Part shown: positions 46,900-56,177 of the stretch, piece after piece
How positions within the stretch are numbered: position 1 is the stretch's first letter
Layout of the letters: each line of letters opens with the position of its first letter
NCBI GenBank assembly: GCA_040756055.1
Contig: JBFLZR010000001.1
Span: forward strand, 127,849-191,848
DNA: 64,000 bases
Direction: 5' to 3'
Origin: Candidatus Zixiibacteriota bacterium
Lineage (GTDB): Bacteria > Zixibacteria > MSB-5A5 > GN15 > FEB-12
Made by a program: the position numbers and the translations under genes
The notes under the pieces: generated by a model
What the model was told of the DNA's origin: nothing
What the model saw: only the letters and a program-made list of their open reading frames with translations
The model's database searches: none

Positions 46900-47745
46900 T
46901 CAGTGGTGAGGGCGAAGAACACGTTTGCCCAGGGCCACACCCAGATAGACAATTCCCGCGAAGATGATTATGGTAGCCCCGGCCGGAAGGTCGGGGCTGT
47001 AACTTATGGCTAATCCAAATGTCGTAAAAAGTATGCTCAGCACTGTCGCTACCCACATTGTCTGCCAGAGAGTACGCGTGAAGTGACCGGCGATGGCTGC
47101 CGGCAAAGTGAGCAGCGCGATAACCATCACAATACCCACTACATCGACCAGAATCACAACCGTCAGTCCCGTCAGCCCCAGCAGCAGCAGGTAGAAAAAT
47201 TCCGTGTTGATACCGCGGATGCGGGCGAACTCTTCATCGAAACACACCGCGAGAAACTTGTTGTAAAACAGCGCCACGGTCAGAACTATGACCCCATCGA
47301 GTATGGCAATAAGCATCAGGTCATGACCGGTGACCAACAGAATATTACCAAACAGGTAGGTCATCAGGTCGACATTGTAGCCGGGTGTCATGGAGATGAA
47401 GATAACGCCGATAGCCATACCAATGGCCCAGATAGCGCCGATAACGGTGTCTTCGCGCTCTCTTGCTTTAAGACTCACCCATCCTATAACCATCGACGCC
47501 AGCAGGGCCGCCACGATTGCCCCATGAAGCGGGCTGAGCCACGACCAGTCGTATACGGTGGCAAGATATCGGGCGAAGCCGAGTCCTCCCAGAACACTGT
47601 GGGCGATACCGCCGGCTATGTACGTGATGCGCCGGGAGACGACATAAGTACCTACCACCCCGCAGGCGACGCTCGCCAGAACCCCGGTCAGCAGGGCGTT
47701 GAACATGAAGGAGTGATGCAAAACCGCGTAGATGAAGTCCGACAT
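46900..47745 (-). CDS. Metal ABC transporter permease (ZnuB-like)
   Basis: A 281-residue integral membrane protein with about eight hydrophobic helices of the ABC-3 permease family (ZnuB/MntB). Typical landmarks: G-V-V-G-T-Y-V-V-S-R-R near residue 30, H-S-V-L-G-G-L-G and G-T-S-F-like A-I-G-M-A-I-G-V. It moves a divalent metal, likely Zn2+, across the inner membrane, driven by the ATPase encoded upstream. Last gene of a four-gene operon. Confidence 0.88.
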   Translation of the reverse strand: MSDFIYAVLHHSFMFNALLTGVLASVACGVVGTYVVSRRITYIAGGIAHSVLGGLGFARYLATVYDWSWLSPLHGAIVAALLASMVIGWVSLKAREREDTVIGAIWAIGMAIGVIFISMTPGYNVDLMTYLFGNILLVTGHDLMLIAILDGVIVLTVALFYNKFLAVCFDEEFARIRGINTEFFYLLLLGLTGLTVVILVDVVGIVMVIALLTLPAAIAGHFTRTLWQTMWVATVLSILFTTFGLAISYSPDLPAGATIIIFAGIVYLGVALGKRVLRPHH

Positions 47746-47760
47746 CGTCTAATGTTCTCC

Positions 47761-48498
47761 CTAGGTGTGCTTATCATGGCGAACCATTCTAAGGCCATCG
47801 CCATAGAGTTCGCCGAGAAATTCCTTGTCGCGGTCGGTGGTGGGATGAACCGCCACAGTTCTGTTGACACAGACTACCTGCTCGACAAAATCCGAAACGA
47901 ACGCGGGATCGTGCGAAACCATGATAACTGTCAGACGCTGATTGAGTTGCTTGAGCAGGTCGAACAGTTCTCGCTCAACGCGGCGGTCGAGGTTGGCGGT
48001 AGGCTCATCGAGAAGCAACAACTCGGGTTCACAGGCCAGCGCGCGGGCGATAAGCAAGCGCCTCTGCTGACCGCCGGACAACTCCTTGAGGGGAACATCG
48101 GCAGCTGCTTCCAACCCCACCAGACGCAGAGCCTCCCGTGCGATAGCCCGGTCCGATGATGAAAGTGAACCGGGTTTGATGCCTTGATTAAGTCTGCCCA
48201 TCATGGCAATATCGATAGCGGTGACAGGGAAATTCAGGTCCAAGTGCGCCTGCTGTGGCATATAACCAATACGCCTTCGGGCCGACTCAGCCGATTCGCC
48301 GAAGACCGCAATCGTGCCGCGCTTCGGCTTCAGCAGCCCCAGGATGAGCTTGATCAGGGTGGTCTTTCCGCCGCCGTTGGGACCGACTACCCATACGAAA
48401 TCCCTTTCTCCCACGATAAGATTCACGTTCTCCAGCACCGGCTTGGAGTTGTAGGCGAAAAAAACACCCTTGAGGTTAATGACATCTTTTGCGGCCAT
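47761..48498 (-). CDS. Metal ABC transporter ATPase (ZnuC-like)
   Basis: A 245-residue ABC ATPase. Walker A is G-P-N-G-G-G-K-T-T, the signature is L-S-G-G-Q-Q-R-R, Walker B is L-L-L-L-D-E-P and the switch His is in V-S-H-D. It is positioned between the binding-protein and permease genes. AGGAAAT before the ATG overlaps the preceding stop (TAG), six bases away. Confidence 0.93.
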   Translation of the reverse strand: MAAKDVINLKGVFFAYNSKPVLENVNLIVGERDFVWVVGPNGGGKTTLIKLILGLLKPKRGTIAVFGESAESARRRIGYMPQQAHLDLNFPVTAIDIAMMGRLNQGIKPGSLSSSDRAIAREALRLVGLEAAADVPLKELSGGQQRRLLIARALACEPELLLLDEPTANLDRRVERELFDLLKQLNQRLTVIMVSHDPAFVSDFVEQVVCVNRTVAVHPTTDRDKEFLGELYGDGLRMVRHDKHT

Positions 48499-48503
48499 AT
48501 TTC

Positions 48504-49436
48504 CTAGAGTTCTTCTGTTTTGGTGCTGTCACCAGGAATCTGACTGTCGGGATTGCCGAGCGCCTGTACTATCTTGCGCGCCATATCTACCAGATTATTC
48601 AGATAATCGCCCGAGAGCGGATCCAGGGTAACCATCGTCGCTCCGATAGCCTGGCCAACCGATTCAGCCTGCCGCTTCGAAAATTGGGGCTGAACAAAAA
48701 CAACGTCAACTCTATCCTTGCGCGCCTGTTCGACGATAGCGGCAAGTTGCCTTGCCGACGGTTCCTTGCCGCCCGTTTCGATAGCGACCTGCCTGAGACC
48801 GTAGGCATCGCAGAAATAACCGTAGGCAGGATGGAAAACGAACATCGTTCGACCCCGCAGCGGTGCGAGTATGCCGCGCACGATATTGTCAACCGAATCC
48901 ATGCGCTCCAATAGATTCTCCAGGTGGTCGGCATAGATCAGCGAATTGACGGTGTCGATGACACTCAATGCCTCGGCTATGGTTCTTGCCTCGATCGCGG
49001 CAAGTTTGGGATCCAGCCAGACATGCGGGTCCAGTATTCCTTCATGGCCGTGGTCGCTATCGTCATGATGTTCGATGGGACGGAGCCGGATCTCGCGGTG
49101 GGTTTCGACAATTTCAAGGTCCTTGAACTCATCCTCGATTTTATCAATCAATCGACTCTCAAACGGCACGCCGGCAGTGAAGAGAACATCGGCAGTTGCC
49201 ATGCGGGATAGTTGCTGCGGAGTGGGCTCGTAGGTCGCGGGCGATTGCGCCGGGGGAACAAGTATTTCAACATCGACGAGGTCTCTGCCTATCTCCGATA
49301 CGAAATAACCCTGGGGTGCAATGCTGACAAACGCCTTCACCTTCGCTATCGCCGACGGAGCAACCAGGAGCGCCAGCAGAACGAACGTATAGAGCAGAAC
49401 ATGTCCATACATCAATCTTGTTCGGATTCGGGTCAC
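48504..49436 (-). CDS. Metal-binding periplasmic protein of the ABC system (ZnuA-like)
   Basis: A 310-residue cluster A-I substrate-binding protein with a signal peptide ending near S-A-I-A. The long His-rich loop H-H-D-D-S-D-H-G-H lies near residue 123, typical of Zn2+ importers, and D-P-H-V-W-L-D-P and F-H-P-A-Y-G-Y-F supply two metal His. The first ligand His of ZnuA/MntC, normally in S-P-H-x-Y, is Ala here (Q-S-P-A-T-Y-E-P-T-P), so the site may have three ligands or a different metal. It overlaps the upstream regulator gene by four bases. Confidence 0.87.
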   Translation of the reverse strand: MTRIRTRLMYGHVLLYTFVLLALLVAPSAIAKVKAFVSIAPQGYFVSEIGRDLVDVEILVPPAQSPATYEPTPQQLSRMATADVLFTAGVPFESRLIDKIEDEFKDLEIVETHREIRLRPIEHHDDSDHGHEGILDPHVWLDPKLAAIEARTIAEALSVIDTVNSLIYADHLENLLERMDSVDNIVRGILAPLRGRTMFVFHPAYGYFCDAYGLRQVAIETGGKEPSARQLAAIVEQARKDRVDVVFVQPQFSKRQAESVGQAIGATMVTLDPLSGDYLNNLVDMARKIVQALGNPDSQIPGDSTKTEEL

Positions 49437-49705
49437 CGTTTTGCCCCCTCCCTCTCATGCGCGCACACGATATGAAATTCCTCGCAGTCGGAACACTTTT
49501 CTACGGCATGTCGCTTGAGAAACTGTTCCCAGTGCTGTCTCTGGTTGGGGCTCAATATCCCGCTTCCGGCACACAGGGGGCAGGTGCTATCCAGAGCCGC
49601 CAGCACAGCCGATCTGATAAAGCTGGAGCGATTCGGGATACCTTCCAGAGCCGTCAATAGGGAGTCATCGACTTTAAACGTTATAATCTCCGATTTCTTT
49701 TTCAT
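49433..49705 (-). CDS. Ribbon-helix-helix regulator with Cys/His-rich tail
   Basis: A 90-residue protein. Residues 5-38 are a ribbon-helix-helix DNA-binding unit (I-I-T-F-K-V-D-D-S-L-L then R-S-S-F-I-R-S-A-V). The tail has C-P-L-C at 42-45, C-S-D-C at 71-74, Cys81, and His58, 66, 78 and 83, enough for a metal site. It is the first gene of the metal ABC operon, overlaps the next gene by four bases, and a palindrome overlaps its promoter. It is therefore probably a metal-dependent repressor analogous to NikR but without the ACT domain. Confidence 0.75.
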   Translation of the reverse strand: MKKKSEIITFKVDDSLLTALEGIPNRSSFIRSAVLAALDSTCPLCAGSGILSPNQRQHWEQFLKRHAVEKCSDCEEFHIVCAHEREGAKR

Positions 49706-49749
49706 AACGACATAAACTCTCTACAAGCGAATCGGGTTTTTGGTTTTGC

Positions 49750-49782
49750 GGTAATTATTACTTTGTATTACCTGTCTGTCAA
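49750..49782 (-). promoter_or_regulatory. Promoter with overlapping palindromic operator for the metal ABC operon
   Basis: On the minus strand TTGACA (49777-49782, perfect) and AATAAT (49754-49759, five of six) are separated by 17 bases. The inverted repeat GGTAAT-N11-ATTACC occupies 49750-49772, covering the spacer and the -10; inside it GTAATTATTAC (49751-49761) is itself an 11-base palindrome. A protein bound there would block RNA polymerase. The transcript would have a leader of about 42 bases. Confidence 0.75.
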
Positions 49783-52907: not shown

Positions 52908-53531
52908 CTAAAACGGAAGATACCTATATATTTCTTTAACAGCCAAGGCCTGAAATTGTTCGAGGGCTTTCAGACTGGCGGGGTCATCACCGGCAATGAA
53001 TCTCACGAAAGCAACATCGCGCGGCTTGAATGTCAGGGCGCTCGCCAGCAGGTGAAGTTTGAAAGTGTAGTCATTTGCTGTCTCACCGAAGTTGGTGACA
53101 TACCAAAAGTCCATAATCCTTCTGGTCGCTCCGTATTGCAGGTCAAATCTGCCCGCCGGTATTGTCCGGTGGTCAAGGGGAATTTTGTTGTCTTCGGTTT
53201 GCTGCACCACCCATCCCGCTCCCGGCAGACAATTGCGGGGCGAGTGGGGTCCGCCGAAAGTTGCCTCGGAAGAAAAGAAGTCGAACAAAAGGTGAATCTG
53301 GATGCCATCGGGATTTGTATATGTAGCGGAAAAAATATCAACCGGATTCAGCATCTCCAGAACGGGCTGCGAGACTTCATCTCTTTCTCCCTGCCACGGG
53401 CCAATCGTAAGCGGGAAGTTATCGAAATTGACGTTCCCGGCCGAGGCGGGGCGATGGTACTTGATAACAAGCGCGATGGTGAAGGTCAGAACCAGAATTA
53501 TCAGGATCGCCGCAAACGATTTCTTATCCAT
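52908..53531 (-). CDS. EpsI-family exosortase-associated protein
   Basis: A 207-residue protein with one N-terminal membrane helix and a domain of the EpsI (DUF3485) type, recognised by H-S-P-R-N-C-L-P-G-A-G-W near residue 97 and the final beta segments. EpsI domains accompany exosortases in exopolysaccharide/PEP-CTERM systems, as a separate or fused module. It overlaps the exosortase gene by 31 bases. Role is not proven in any system. Confidence 0.85.
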   Translation of the reverse strand: MDKKSFAAILIILVLTFTIALVIKYHRPASAGNVNFDNFPLTIGPWQGERDEVSQPVLEMLNPVDIFSATYTNPDGIQIHLLFDFFSSEATFGGPHSPRNCLPGAGWVVQQTEDNKIPLDHRTIPAGRFDLQYGATRRIMDFWYVTNFGETANDYTFKLHLLASALTFKPRDVAFVRFIAGDDPASLKALEQFQALAVKEIYRYLPF

Positions 53532-54361
53532 ATCAGAATATTCCCCAGAATTACCATGATAACAAGAGCCGTGAAAAAGACAAAAAGCCCCGAAATCTCG
53601 TGTATAAAATCTTCAGCTACCTCTTTGCTGATGGCATACGCGCCAAAAGCGGCCGTAAACACGCGGAAGACGTTGGTGACAATGGCGATGGGTATTGCCG
53701 CCACGAACAACACCACCGGAAGAACCTTGCCGGGCAGGCGGAAATAAGCATACAGGGCCGCTAATGCCAGCAGCGTCACAAGACTTCTCAGCCCACTGCA
53801 CGCTTCGACAACTTCCAAACTGTAACCGGGCAGGTTGATGATGTTGCCATTTCGCATGACAGGTATGCCCACCAACTGCAGAAGCGAAGTCGTCACTTTG
53901 GAGGCGAAAAGCTGCATTGGAATTGTTGCCGAGTGATAAATGATGGCCGGGACAGGGATCATGAACACTAAGAAGAAAAACGCGAACCAAACCTTTCGAA
54001 AATTTTCGTTGCCGAGGTAATACCAGGCAAAACCGGAAAGGACTATCACCAACCCGAACCGGGTGGTGAAAAATTCGCTGGCTGCGTAACCGAATATCAG
54101 CAGGATGCACCCGGCGACAAACAGCGCCAGTCCCTGTCGCGATGTTTTGGCGGGGAGGTTTATGTCGTGGCGTTTGCGATAAAACAGAAAGATGGAGATC
54201 GGTATTATGAAGAAACCGTGTGAGTAGTTGCCATCGTGATACCAGTCCGTTGCGAGATCAGTCAATATCGGCACAGAAAACATCAGCAGCACCAGCAGGA
54301 TTGTGTACGGATAAAGGTAGAATTTGAGATGCTTGAAAACAGATTCTGTGTCGAGTCGCAT
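53501..54361 (-). CDS. Exosortase (membrane cysteine transpeptidase)
   Basis: A 286-residue polytopic protein with about eight helices. The Cys-Arg-His set of exosortases is visible: V-V-E-A-C-S-G-L-R-S-L (Cys), I-V-T-N-V-F-R-V (Arg) and D-F-I-H-E-I-S-G-L-F (His). Exosortases cleave and anchor PEP-CTERM proteins, but no such protein is apparent in the window. The ATG at 54361 has GGGAG seven bases upstream; the frame extends to an ATG at 54418 without a ribosome site. Tight overlap with the EpsI gene. Confidence 0.88.
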   Translation of the reverse strand: MRLDTESVFKHLKFYLYPYTILLVLLMFSVPILTDLATDWYHDGNYSHGFFIIPISIFLFYRKRHDINLPAKTSRQGLALFVAGCILLIFGYAASEFFTTRFGLVIVLSGFAWYYLGNENFRKVWFAFFFLVFMIPVPAIIYHSATIPMQLFASKVTTSLLQLVGIPVMRNGNIINLPGYSLEVVEACSGLRSLVTLLALAALYAYFRLPGKVLPVVLFVAAIPIAIVTNVFRVFTAAFGAYAISKEVAEDFIHEISGLFVFFTALVIMVILGNILIWIRNRLRRS

Positions 54362-54418
54362 TCGTTTCTCCCGGCTCTTACTGCCGCTTTCCAATATAGT
54401 TACATCGAGTTCAGTCAT

Positions 54419-54770
54419 CCAAGTTAAAACATGACGAGCGTGGCCTTATGCCTTTTGGCGCGATATATCAAGGAGTTGGTCCCATTCTACGGACTAAATA
54501 CGCACTATCTGCGCATTGAAAGAACGGATTTAAATTCGATAATTCCAGCGTCGGGGAGGAAACTTTGGGAATGGATGACATTGGTAAATTGCTGAGCACT
54601 GCTCAAAGTCTAAACAGGTTTTGAGGCTCGGAGCGCTTCCGGTCGGCGACCATTCTGAGCCTTTAAATCACGACACAACATAGGCTTGAGAGAATTTCCA
54701 GGCAGTTGGTGCACGATTTGCTAAGCATTCCAACTTGAAACAAACACAACATGAGGCTCTGGAGAAAACG
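54419..54770. other. Divergent intergenic region with hairpins
   Basis: About 350 bases between the exosortase (minus) and the fibronectin/T9SS protein (plus). AGGCTC at about 54623 pairs with GAGCCT at about 54655 around a GC-rich 26-base loop, followed by TTTAAATC. No promoter pair stands out. GGAG for the plus-strand gene is at 54760. Confidence 0.4.
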
Positions 54771-56177
54771 ATGGACTATCTCAAGTACACATCAAAACTC
54801 GCTACTCGCGTCGCCCGTCCGGGGGCTATTCTCGCAGCACTTTTACTTCTTTTTTCCGCCAGTTCATTTGCGACCCTCACCGCACCGTCAGCATCTCCAA
54901 CATCGGTCACGCTGACCTGGACAGCTCCGGGGGACGATGGTGATGTCGGCACGGCCGCACAGTATGATTTGCGTTATTCGACTTCGCTGATCACCGAGGC
55001 CAACTGGGGTCAGGCCACGGTGGTGTCGGGGCTTCCCGCACCGCAGGCATCCGGATCGTCCGAATCATTCACGGTTACCGGGTTGAATCCGGGCACAACC
55101 TATTATTTTGCGATTAGGGCGGCTGACGAAGTCGCTAACTGGTCGGCGCTATCAAATGTGGCCACAATCGCCACCGACCCTGAACAGGATGCTCCTGCCA
55201 ACGTGGCTAACCTGGCGGTTGCCGAGAGATTCCGCTACGCCGCTTTATTGTCCTGGACAGCGCCCGGCGACGACGGTAACACGGGCACAGCCACCACATA
55301 CGATATTCGTTATTCGACCAGCACTATCACCGATGAAACCTGGAGCGCCGCGTCACAGGTAGCCAACGAACCGGCGCCCAAAATCGCGGGGACCACGGAG
55401 ACTCTTACGGTATCGGGACTTCAAGAGAACACCACCTACTATTTCGCCCTTAAAACGGCCGACGAGGTTCCTAACTGGTCGGGGCTTTCGAACGTAGCCA
55501 CGACGACAACTCTCGGCGACGAGACCCCTCCGTCGCAGATTGACGACCTTCAGGCCGCCTCGGGCGAGGCCAATGGTGAGATAGACCTTAGCTGGACGGC
55601 GCCCGGTGATGATGGCCTGACCGGAACGGCGTCAGTCTATGAAATAAGATTCTCTCTCACTACTTTGACTGAAGCCAACTGGGATTCCGCCGACCTGTGC
55701 ACTTCTCCTCCATCGCCGCTGCCCTGCGGTGAGGAGCAGACTCACACGCTTTGCGATCTGAATCCCGGAGAGATGTATTACATTGCTTTGATAGCCTATG
55801 ATGACGCCGGTAATCCTTCTGCCATCTCCAACATCGACTCGGCTGTTTCGAAACTCTCTATTATTTCCGGAATCGATGATGAATCCGATTTATTGCCCGA
55901 TGAATTCTCGCTTGGACAGAATTATCCCAATCCTTTTAATCCGACAACTGAGATTAATTTTACTCTTCCTGTCTCGTGCGAAGTCAGTCTTATTGTGTAC
56001 AACGCCGTCGGCCAGAGAGTGGCTACTCTGGTCGACGGTCGTCTCTCGGCCGGTTATCACAGCGTGCGCTGGGACGGGCAGGGAGATAATGGTCGGAGCA
56101 CGGCAACCGGTGTATATTTCTACCGACTTCTGGCGGAGGAATTTTCGGAAAGCAAGAAAATGGTTCTGTTGAAGTGA
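54771..56177 (+). CDS. Secreted fibronectin type III protein with T9SS sorting domain
   Basis: A 468-residue surface protein. After a signal peptide (S-S-F-A-T) come three fibronectin type III repeats of about 105 residues, each with W-T-A-P-G-D-D-G near its start and a Y-Y-F/I-A-L/I-x-A-x-D-E/D block near its end, so they arose by internal duplication. The last 90 residues form a T9SS-type domain (N-Y-P-N-P-F-N-P ... R-W-D-G-Q-G-D-N-G ... K-K-M-V-L-L-K). The ATG at 54771 has GGAG seven bases upstream; a TTG 12 codons earlier is less likely. Probably an adhesin or matrix protein. Confidence 0.87.
   Translation: MDYLKYTSKLATRVARPGAILAALLLLFSASSFATLTAPSASPTSVTLTWTAPGDDGDVGTAAQYDLRYSTSLITEANWGQATVVSGLPAPQASGSSESFTVTGLNPGTTYYFAIRAADEVANWSALSNVATIATDPEQDAPANVANLAVAERFRYAALLSWTAPGDDGNTGTATTYDIRYSTSTITDETWSAASQVANEPAPKIAGTTETLTVSGLQENTTYYFALKTADEVPNWSGLSNVATTTTLGDETPPSQIDDLQAASGEANGEIDLSWTAPGDDGLTGTASVYEIRFSLTTLTEANWDSADLCTSPPSPLPCGEEQTHTLCDLNPGEMYYIALIAYDDAGNPSAISNIDSAVSKLSIISGIDDESDLLPDEFSLGQNYPNPFNPTTEINFTLPVSCEVSLIVYNAVGQRVATLVDGRLSAGYHSVRWDGQGDNGRSTATGVYFYRLLAEEFSESKKMVLLK

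Follow-up and report, generated by a model that had tools for sequence, protein, structure and literature searches.

The first gene of a zinc-importer operon in a Zixibacteria genome probably encodes a zinc-dependent repressor that would control the znuACB operon, its own gene included, and act as a non-homologous functional replacement of Zur, a reading to which we assign a probability of roughly 0.8. Most bacteria use Zur to control zinc import. Genome comparison reveals a putative operator that lies over the operon promoter and is tied both to a protein with a ribbon-helix-helix (RHH) domain and to znu genes, including a znuA gene unlinked to the operon. The genes and domains concerned lie in the window (the whole 64,000-nucleotide stretch of DNA that was analysed) as follows:

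49433 to 49705, minus strand: gene of the regulator with RHH domain and Cys/His tail, 90 aa, at the head of the operon (ORF call, homologues)
49589 to 49705, minus strand: ribbon-helix-helix domain, codons 1-39 (ITFKVDDSL...PNRSSFIRSAVLAAL)
49463 to 49582, minus strand: predicted metal-binding domain, codons 42-81 (C42xxC45-H58-H66-C71xxC74-C81)
48504 to 49436, minus strand: znuA-type periplasmic metal-binding protein (PF01297, E=6e-65) with the His-rich loop HHDDSDHGHEG
47761 to 48498, minus strand: znuC-type ABC ATPase (profile match)
46900 to 47745, minus strand: znuB-type ABC-3 permease (PF00950)

The RHH regulator gene is followed in the window by znuA, znuC and znuB, in that order, and znuA begins at a GTG that overlaps the regulator's stop codon. 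The three components of a Znu-type operon, a ZnuA of family PF01297, an ABC ATPase and an ABC-3 permease of family PF00950, are all present directly 3' of the regulator, whose position at the head of a metal ABC operon had been claimed in a preliminary description of this DNA and is confirmed here. Elsewhere in the window, two adjacent ORFs (52908-54418) resemble, by eye only, an exosortase and an EpsI-like protein, and beside them lies a protein (54735-56177) with a FSLGQNYPNPFNP-type C-terminal domain, likewise assigned by eye only.

Zinc-specific ZnuA proteins have His-rich loops before the DPHxW motif. In the window ZnuA, the loop HHDDSDHGHEG precedes DPHVW, and similar loops before DPHxW are found in most RHH-linked ZnuAs, while Mn-like paralogues in the same genomes have none. 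One such Mn-like importer (L250), separate from the RHH operon, adjoins a DtxR/MntR-type gene. Given this distribution of the loops, zinc is most likely the metal of the RHH-linked operon, as judged from sequence. Where cluster-9 Zn/Mn proteins usually place the first His ligand, most RHH-linked ZnuAs read SPATYEP or SPxTYxP, and the His is kept (SPHTFEP) in the ZnuA of family f9 and some others. As the window ZnuA carries Ala at this position (SPATYEP), the metal specificity argument relies mainly on the His-rich loop. It is improbable that the regulator is instead a metal-dependent autorepressor of the operon that senses Mn, Fe or Ni. Cluster-9 ABC importers do include Mn/Fe types, and most RHH-type ZnuAs have Ala in place of the first ligand, but their His-rich loop is of the kind typical for zinc importers, the loop-less Mn-like importer occurs separately, and Cys-rich sites such as that of the regulator tail favour Zn over Mn.

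The regulator itself (MKKKSEIITFKVDDSLLTALEGIPNRSSFIRSAVLAALDSTCPLCAGSGILSPNQRQHWEQFLKRHAVEKCSDCEEFHIVCAHEREGAKR, the translation of ORF 49433-49705, minus strand) has at its N-terminus the beta-strand and two helices with an (N/D)RSxFIR-type turn that characterize the RHH superfamily. The NCBIfam aCcr1 RHH model matches residues 7-35 (E=3.9e-5) and all 25 of 25 homologues (best 9e-7), and Pfam RHH_1 weakly matches 14 of the 25, all of these matches lying below curated cut-offs. In an AlphaFold2 monomer model (pLDDT 80), helices span residues 14-20 and 26-39, the N-terminal strand is not formed, and the tail is predicted to comprise a helix (53-65) and a hairpin (66-81). Foldseek searches of the PDB with two monomer models gave no match at E<=0.001; an RHH fold forms only upon dimerisation. 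Taken together, the weak but consistent profile matches and the predicted helices point to an RHH-like N-terminus. Among 35 aligned homologues, K11, D13, N25, S27, F29, I30 and R31 of this domain are invariant, as are the five Cys residues and H66 of the tail, with H58 present in at least 90%. The claimed architecture of the operon's first gene, an RHH domain plus a Cys/His-rich tail, is thus borne out by the ORF, the profile matches and the invariant Cys residues and H66. So are its claimed differences from two known metal sensors: PF01475, the FUR winged-helix and dimerisation domain of Zur, has no match in the window protein, nor does the ACT-like nickel-binding domain NikR_C in Pfam or NCBIfam, the tail being too short for it and Cys-rich. 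Profiles of DnaJ, treble-clef and anti-TRAP modules match the tail weakly, and plasmid and phage searches returned no close match.

Upstream of the operon, the following elements were located:

49777 to 49782, minus strand: -35 hexamer TTGACA (promoter scan)
49754 to 49759, minus strand: -10 hexamer AATAAT, which shares bases with the downstream half of the operator
49750 to 49772, no strand: palindrome GGTAAT-N11-ATTACC of the preliminary description, containing the operator; its right arm is unconserved
49756 to 49771, minus strand: conserved operator GTAATACAAAGTAATA, consensus GTAWTAC-N3-GTAWTA (homologous promoters)

The sigma-70 promoter TTGACA-N17-AATAAT (49782-49754), a match of 11/12, ranks first among the promoter-like sites in the region, in agreement with the earlier claim of a good promoter before the operon. 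The palindrome GGTAAT-N11-ATTACC, put forward as a self-overlapping operator, occurs exactly at 49750-49772, with about 0.003 occurrences expected per 64 kb by base composition, but its right arm ATTACC is matched at 5/6 or better in only 2 of 51 aligned homologous promoters, which rules it out as the operator. What is conserved instead is GTAWTAC-N3-GTAWTA, which lies within the same string with its centre shifted by 2 bp. Of 55 homologous promoters, 42 carry it exactly, 51 with no more than one mismatch and all 55 with no more than two, against a chance expectation for the exact motif of about 2e-5 per 400 bp; its core columns carry near-maximal information and its flanks almost none. The proposed half-sites were therefore wrong and the idea of an operator overlapping the promoter stands, and the suggested search for the palindrome upstream of homologues fails for the original motif and succeeds for the revised one. 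An in-register -35 element of at least 5/6 accompanies 41 of 51 homologous sites, compared with about 6% in shuffled upstream sequence, indicating that the second operator half-site is part of the -10. The first half-site lies within the promoter spacer, a position that promoter function by itself would not keep conserved. Every GTAWTAC 7-mer is a palindrome in its own right, and the centres of the two are separated by 10 bp. We rejected a wide regulon in the genome of the window, as the single other exact site falls within a coding gene.

Of 61 related genomes, 28 encode a homologue of the regulator, as do 45 of 132 genomes of its own phylum, Zixibacteria. Beyond it, sampling of the phylum to which a record labelled 'uncultured Pirellulales' belongs gave homologues in 16 of 294 genomes (eight strong matches, the others distant), and sampling of that of an 'Acidobacteria' record gave them in 2 of 297; nearly all genomes compared are MAGs. 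In nearly all homologues, znuACB follows directly downstream, whole or in part. At three loci in Planctomycetes, what follows the RHH gene and its operator is not znu but the gene of a conserved, His-rich multi-span membrane protein:

L153, 3349 to 4155, minus strand: Planctomycete His-rich membrane protein
L154, 1924 to 2577, plus strand: Planctomycete His-rich membrane protein
L155, 2889 to 3596, minus strand: Planctomycete His-rich membrane protein

The motifs HPxHV, EEWWLVNP-like and WVPCCLxDI are conserved in the three contigs, and Pfam gave no meaningful match for this protein, a candidate zinc or other metal transporter under zinc control. We consider it likely that the regulators form a new family of zinc-uptake repressors, combining an RHH domain with a Cys/His zinc domain, that replaces Zur in Zixibacteria and in some Planctomycetes controls this undescribed His-rich membrane protein, which would be a new zinc transporter. 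Distant Planctomycete relatives (L130-L132, L135 and L136) share a similar N-terminus, have a longer tail with several CxxC pairs and lack znu genes nearby; they may constitute a second subfamily that serves a different function.

The presence of the operator follows that of the protein. Within Zixibacteria, the exact operator was detected in 40 of 45 genomes with the RHH protein and in 11 of 87 without it (Fisher p=3e-18). In family f9, the RHH operon holds only znuC-znuB (L143, L144), and immediately 5' of the unlinked znuA in the genomes G096, G097 and G098 lies a perfect operator (L201-L203); in G097, which is incomplete, no RHH match was found. This site provides the best evidence for what appears to be action in trans. 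The ZnuB tree separates an RHH-linked from a non-RHH branch, and the RHH label requires 2 changes on it, compared with a mean of 12.2 after shuffling (0 of 500 shuffles as low). Upstream of the 11 non-RHH znu operons tested, the operator is absent (at least 3 mismatches each). Two genomes of the non-RHH branch, G127 and G128, carry a FUR-family gene as the first gene of fur-znuA-znuC-znuB (L242, L243). The genome G103, within the RHH branch, has an RHH-type znuACB and has lost the RHH gene; its upstream half-site, which the promoter does not need, has decayed to GTGTTGC, and the one that coincides with the -10 remains intact. A transposase-like gene adjoins this RHH-less znuACB with its half-decayed operator (L241, 5300-5700), which makes the locus a natural experiment. 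In another genome (G046, L192-L200), a dispersed repeat roughly 100 bp long has a perfect operator match at each of nine sampled places. These roughly nine extra sites were rejected as a regulon since they sit in a dispersed repeat; they are possibly due to chance or act as a repressor sponge.

FUR genes occur in most of the genomes compared, and the genome of the window has two:

G000, C1, 468500 to 474500, and C2, 134000 to 140000: FUR paralogue loci (L043, L044), beside katG and feoA-feoB

Since these two genes adjoin katG and feoAB, this genome has no Zur candidate next to its zinc genes; by neighbourhood, the paralogue at katG looks PerR-like and that at feoA-feoB Fur-like. FUR count was discarded as a marker of Zur replacement because FUR absence showed no difference between genomes with and without the RHH protein (p=0.8), and only gene position was used as evidence of replacement. 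The wide occurrence of FUR genes would allow the conserved site to belong to another regulator, such as a FUR paralogue, with the RHH protein having a different role. This is very improbable indeed, as the presence of the site tracks RHH and not FUR: all six RHH-containing genomes without a FUR match have the operator within one mismatch, and the site also precedes the Planctomycete RHH genes, which have a different downstream gene.

The preliminary description had also proposed a self-regulating metal sensor, and the conserved promoter operator, the co-occurrence of protein and site, the site at the unlinked znuA and the FUR gene in the same slot of a sister lineage lend it strong support by comparison. 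Gene order and operator together support a Zur-like role, that is, a putative repression of znuABC that responds to zinc. For its mechanism, we infer direct binding of the RHH protein to DNA, a tetramer on DNA, zinc as co-repressor and the direction of the switch. The N-terminal RHH domain would dimerise and insert its beta-ribbon into the major groove. Considering what is generally known of RHH proteins, palindromic 7-mers 10 bp apart suggest that each GTAWTAC would take one dimer and that two dimers would sit side by side, adjacent on one face of the DNA given a spacing of one helical turn. Spread across the promoter spacer and the -10, they would shut out RNA polymerase. Zinc would be bound by the C-terminal set of C42, C45, C71, C74 and C81 with H58 and H66; under sufficient zinc, the protein would stay on the operator and repress, and under zinc shortage, it would be released and the importer made.

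The zinc of the tail could be structural instead of sensed. The protein would then be an RHH autorepressor with a purely structural zinc module, whose signal is another one (constitutive autoregulation, redox state or a partner protein). Many RHH proteins simply autoregulate, and C42xxC45/C71xxC74 resembles a zinc ribbon or treble-clef pair, in line with the weak DnaJ, treble-clef and anti-TRAP matches. The consistent linkage to zinc import, the conservation of H58, H66 and C81 in addition to four Cys residues, and the replacement of the regulator by FUR in the same slot all weigh against it and make it distinctly improbable.

Among known proteins, the tail has a local likeness around CPxCxGxG to the CxxCxGxG zinc modules of anti-TRAP and DnaJ, which are not DNA-binding and whose matches, below cut-off, cover only part of the tail. 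The RHH domain is common to the window regulator and to aCcr1, CdrS, Arc, MetJ, CopG and type II antitoxins. Like the proposed repressor, other RHH regulators are small autoregulators acting on short tandem half-sites, although, as far as tested, those named lack such a Cys/His domain or a znu operon.

NikR follows the same plan, an RHH domain with a C-terminal metal-binding domain that represses an ABC metal importer, and its half-site in delta-proteobacteria, GTGTTAC/GTAACAC, is one base from GTATTAC/GTAATAC (PMC545781). However, NikR half-sites are about 20-22 bp apart, centre to centre, as in the Escherichia coli site GTATGA-N16-TCATAC with half-sites about two helical turns apart (PMC7055735), compared with 10 bp for the 7-mers here, and NikR is linked to nik, whereas the window regulator is linked to znu and carries Cys ligands in its tail of roughly 50 aa.

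With Zur, the regulator shares its likely function, zinc-responsive repression of znuABC, and the operon position, which a FUR gene can occupy identically (L242, L243). It differs in being a 90-aa protein outside the FUR fold and in its operator, Zur boxes being TAAATCGTAATNATTACGATTTA or ATGCAACNNNGTTGCAT (PMC545781). For delta-proteobacteria, FUR-type Zur proteins with other boxes have been predicted, and several of these bacteria have znuABC without Zur (PMC545781). That Zur is replaceable is illustrated by AdcR, a non-Zur zinc-uptake repressor of the MarR family (PMC6103462), whose fold and sequence are unrelated to those of the window regulator. The regulators of zinc import listed in a 2018 review belong to just two families, FUR (Zur) and MarR (AdcR) (PMC6103462), a 2019 review names NikR as the sole metal-regulated RHH protein (PMC7055735), and a literature search outside subscription papers found no described RHH zinc-uptake regulator. 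If our reading is true, a regulator has been replaced by a non-homologous one within one phylum, and genes of the zinc-starvation response in uncultured phyla, a candidate new transporter among them, could be found by using the operator as a tag. Zinc-uptake control would then gain a further fold in addition to those of Zur (FUR) and AdcR (MarR), and the window regulator would be the second metal-regulated RHH protein, after NikR.
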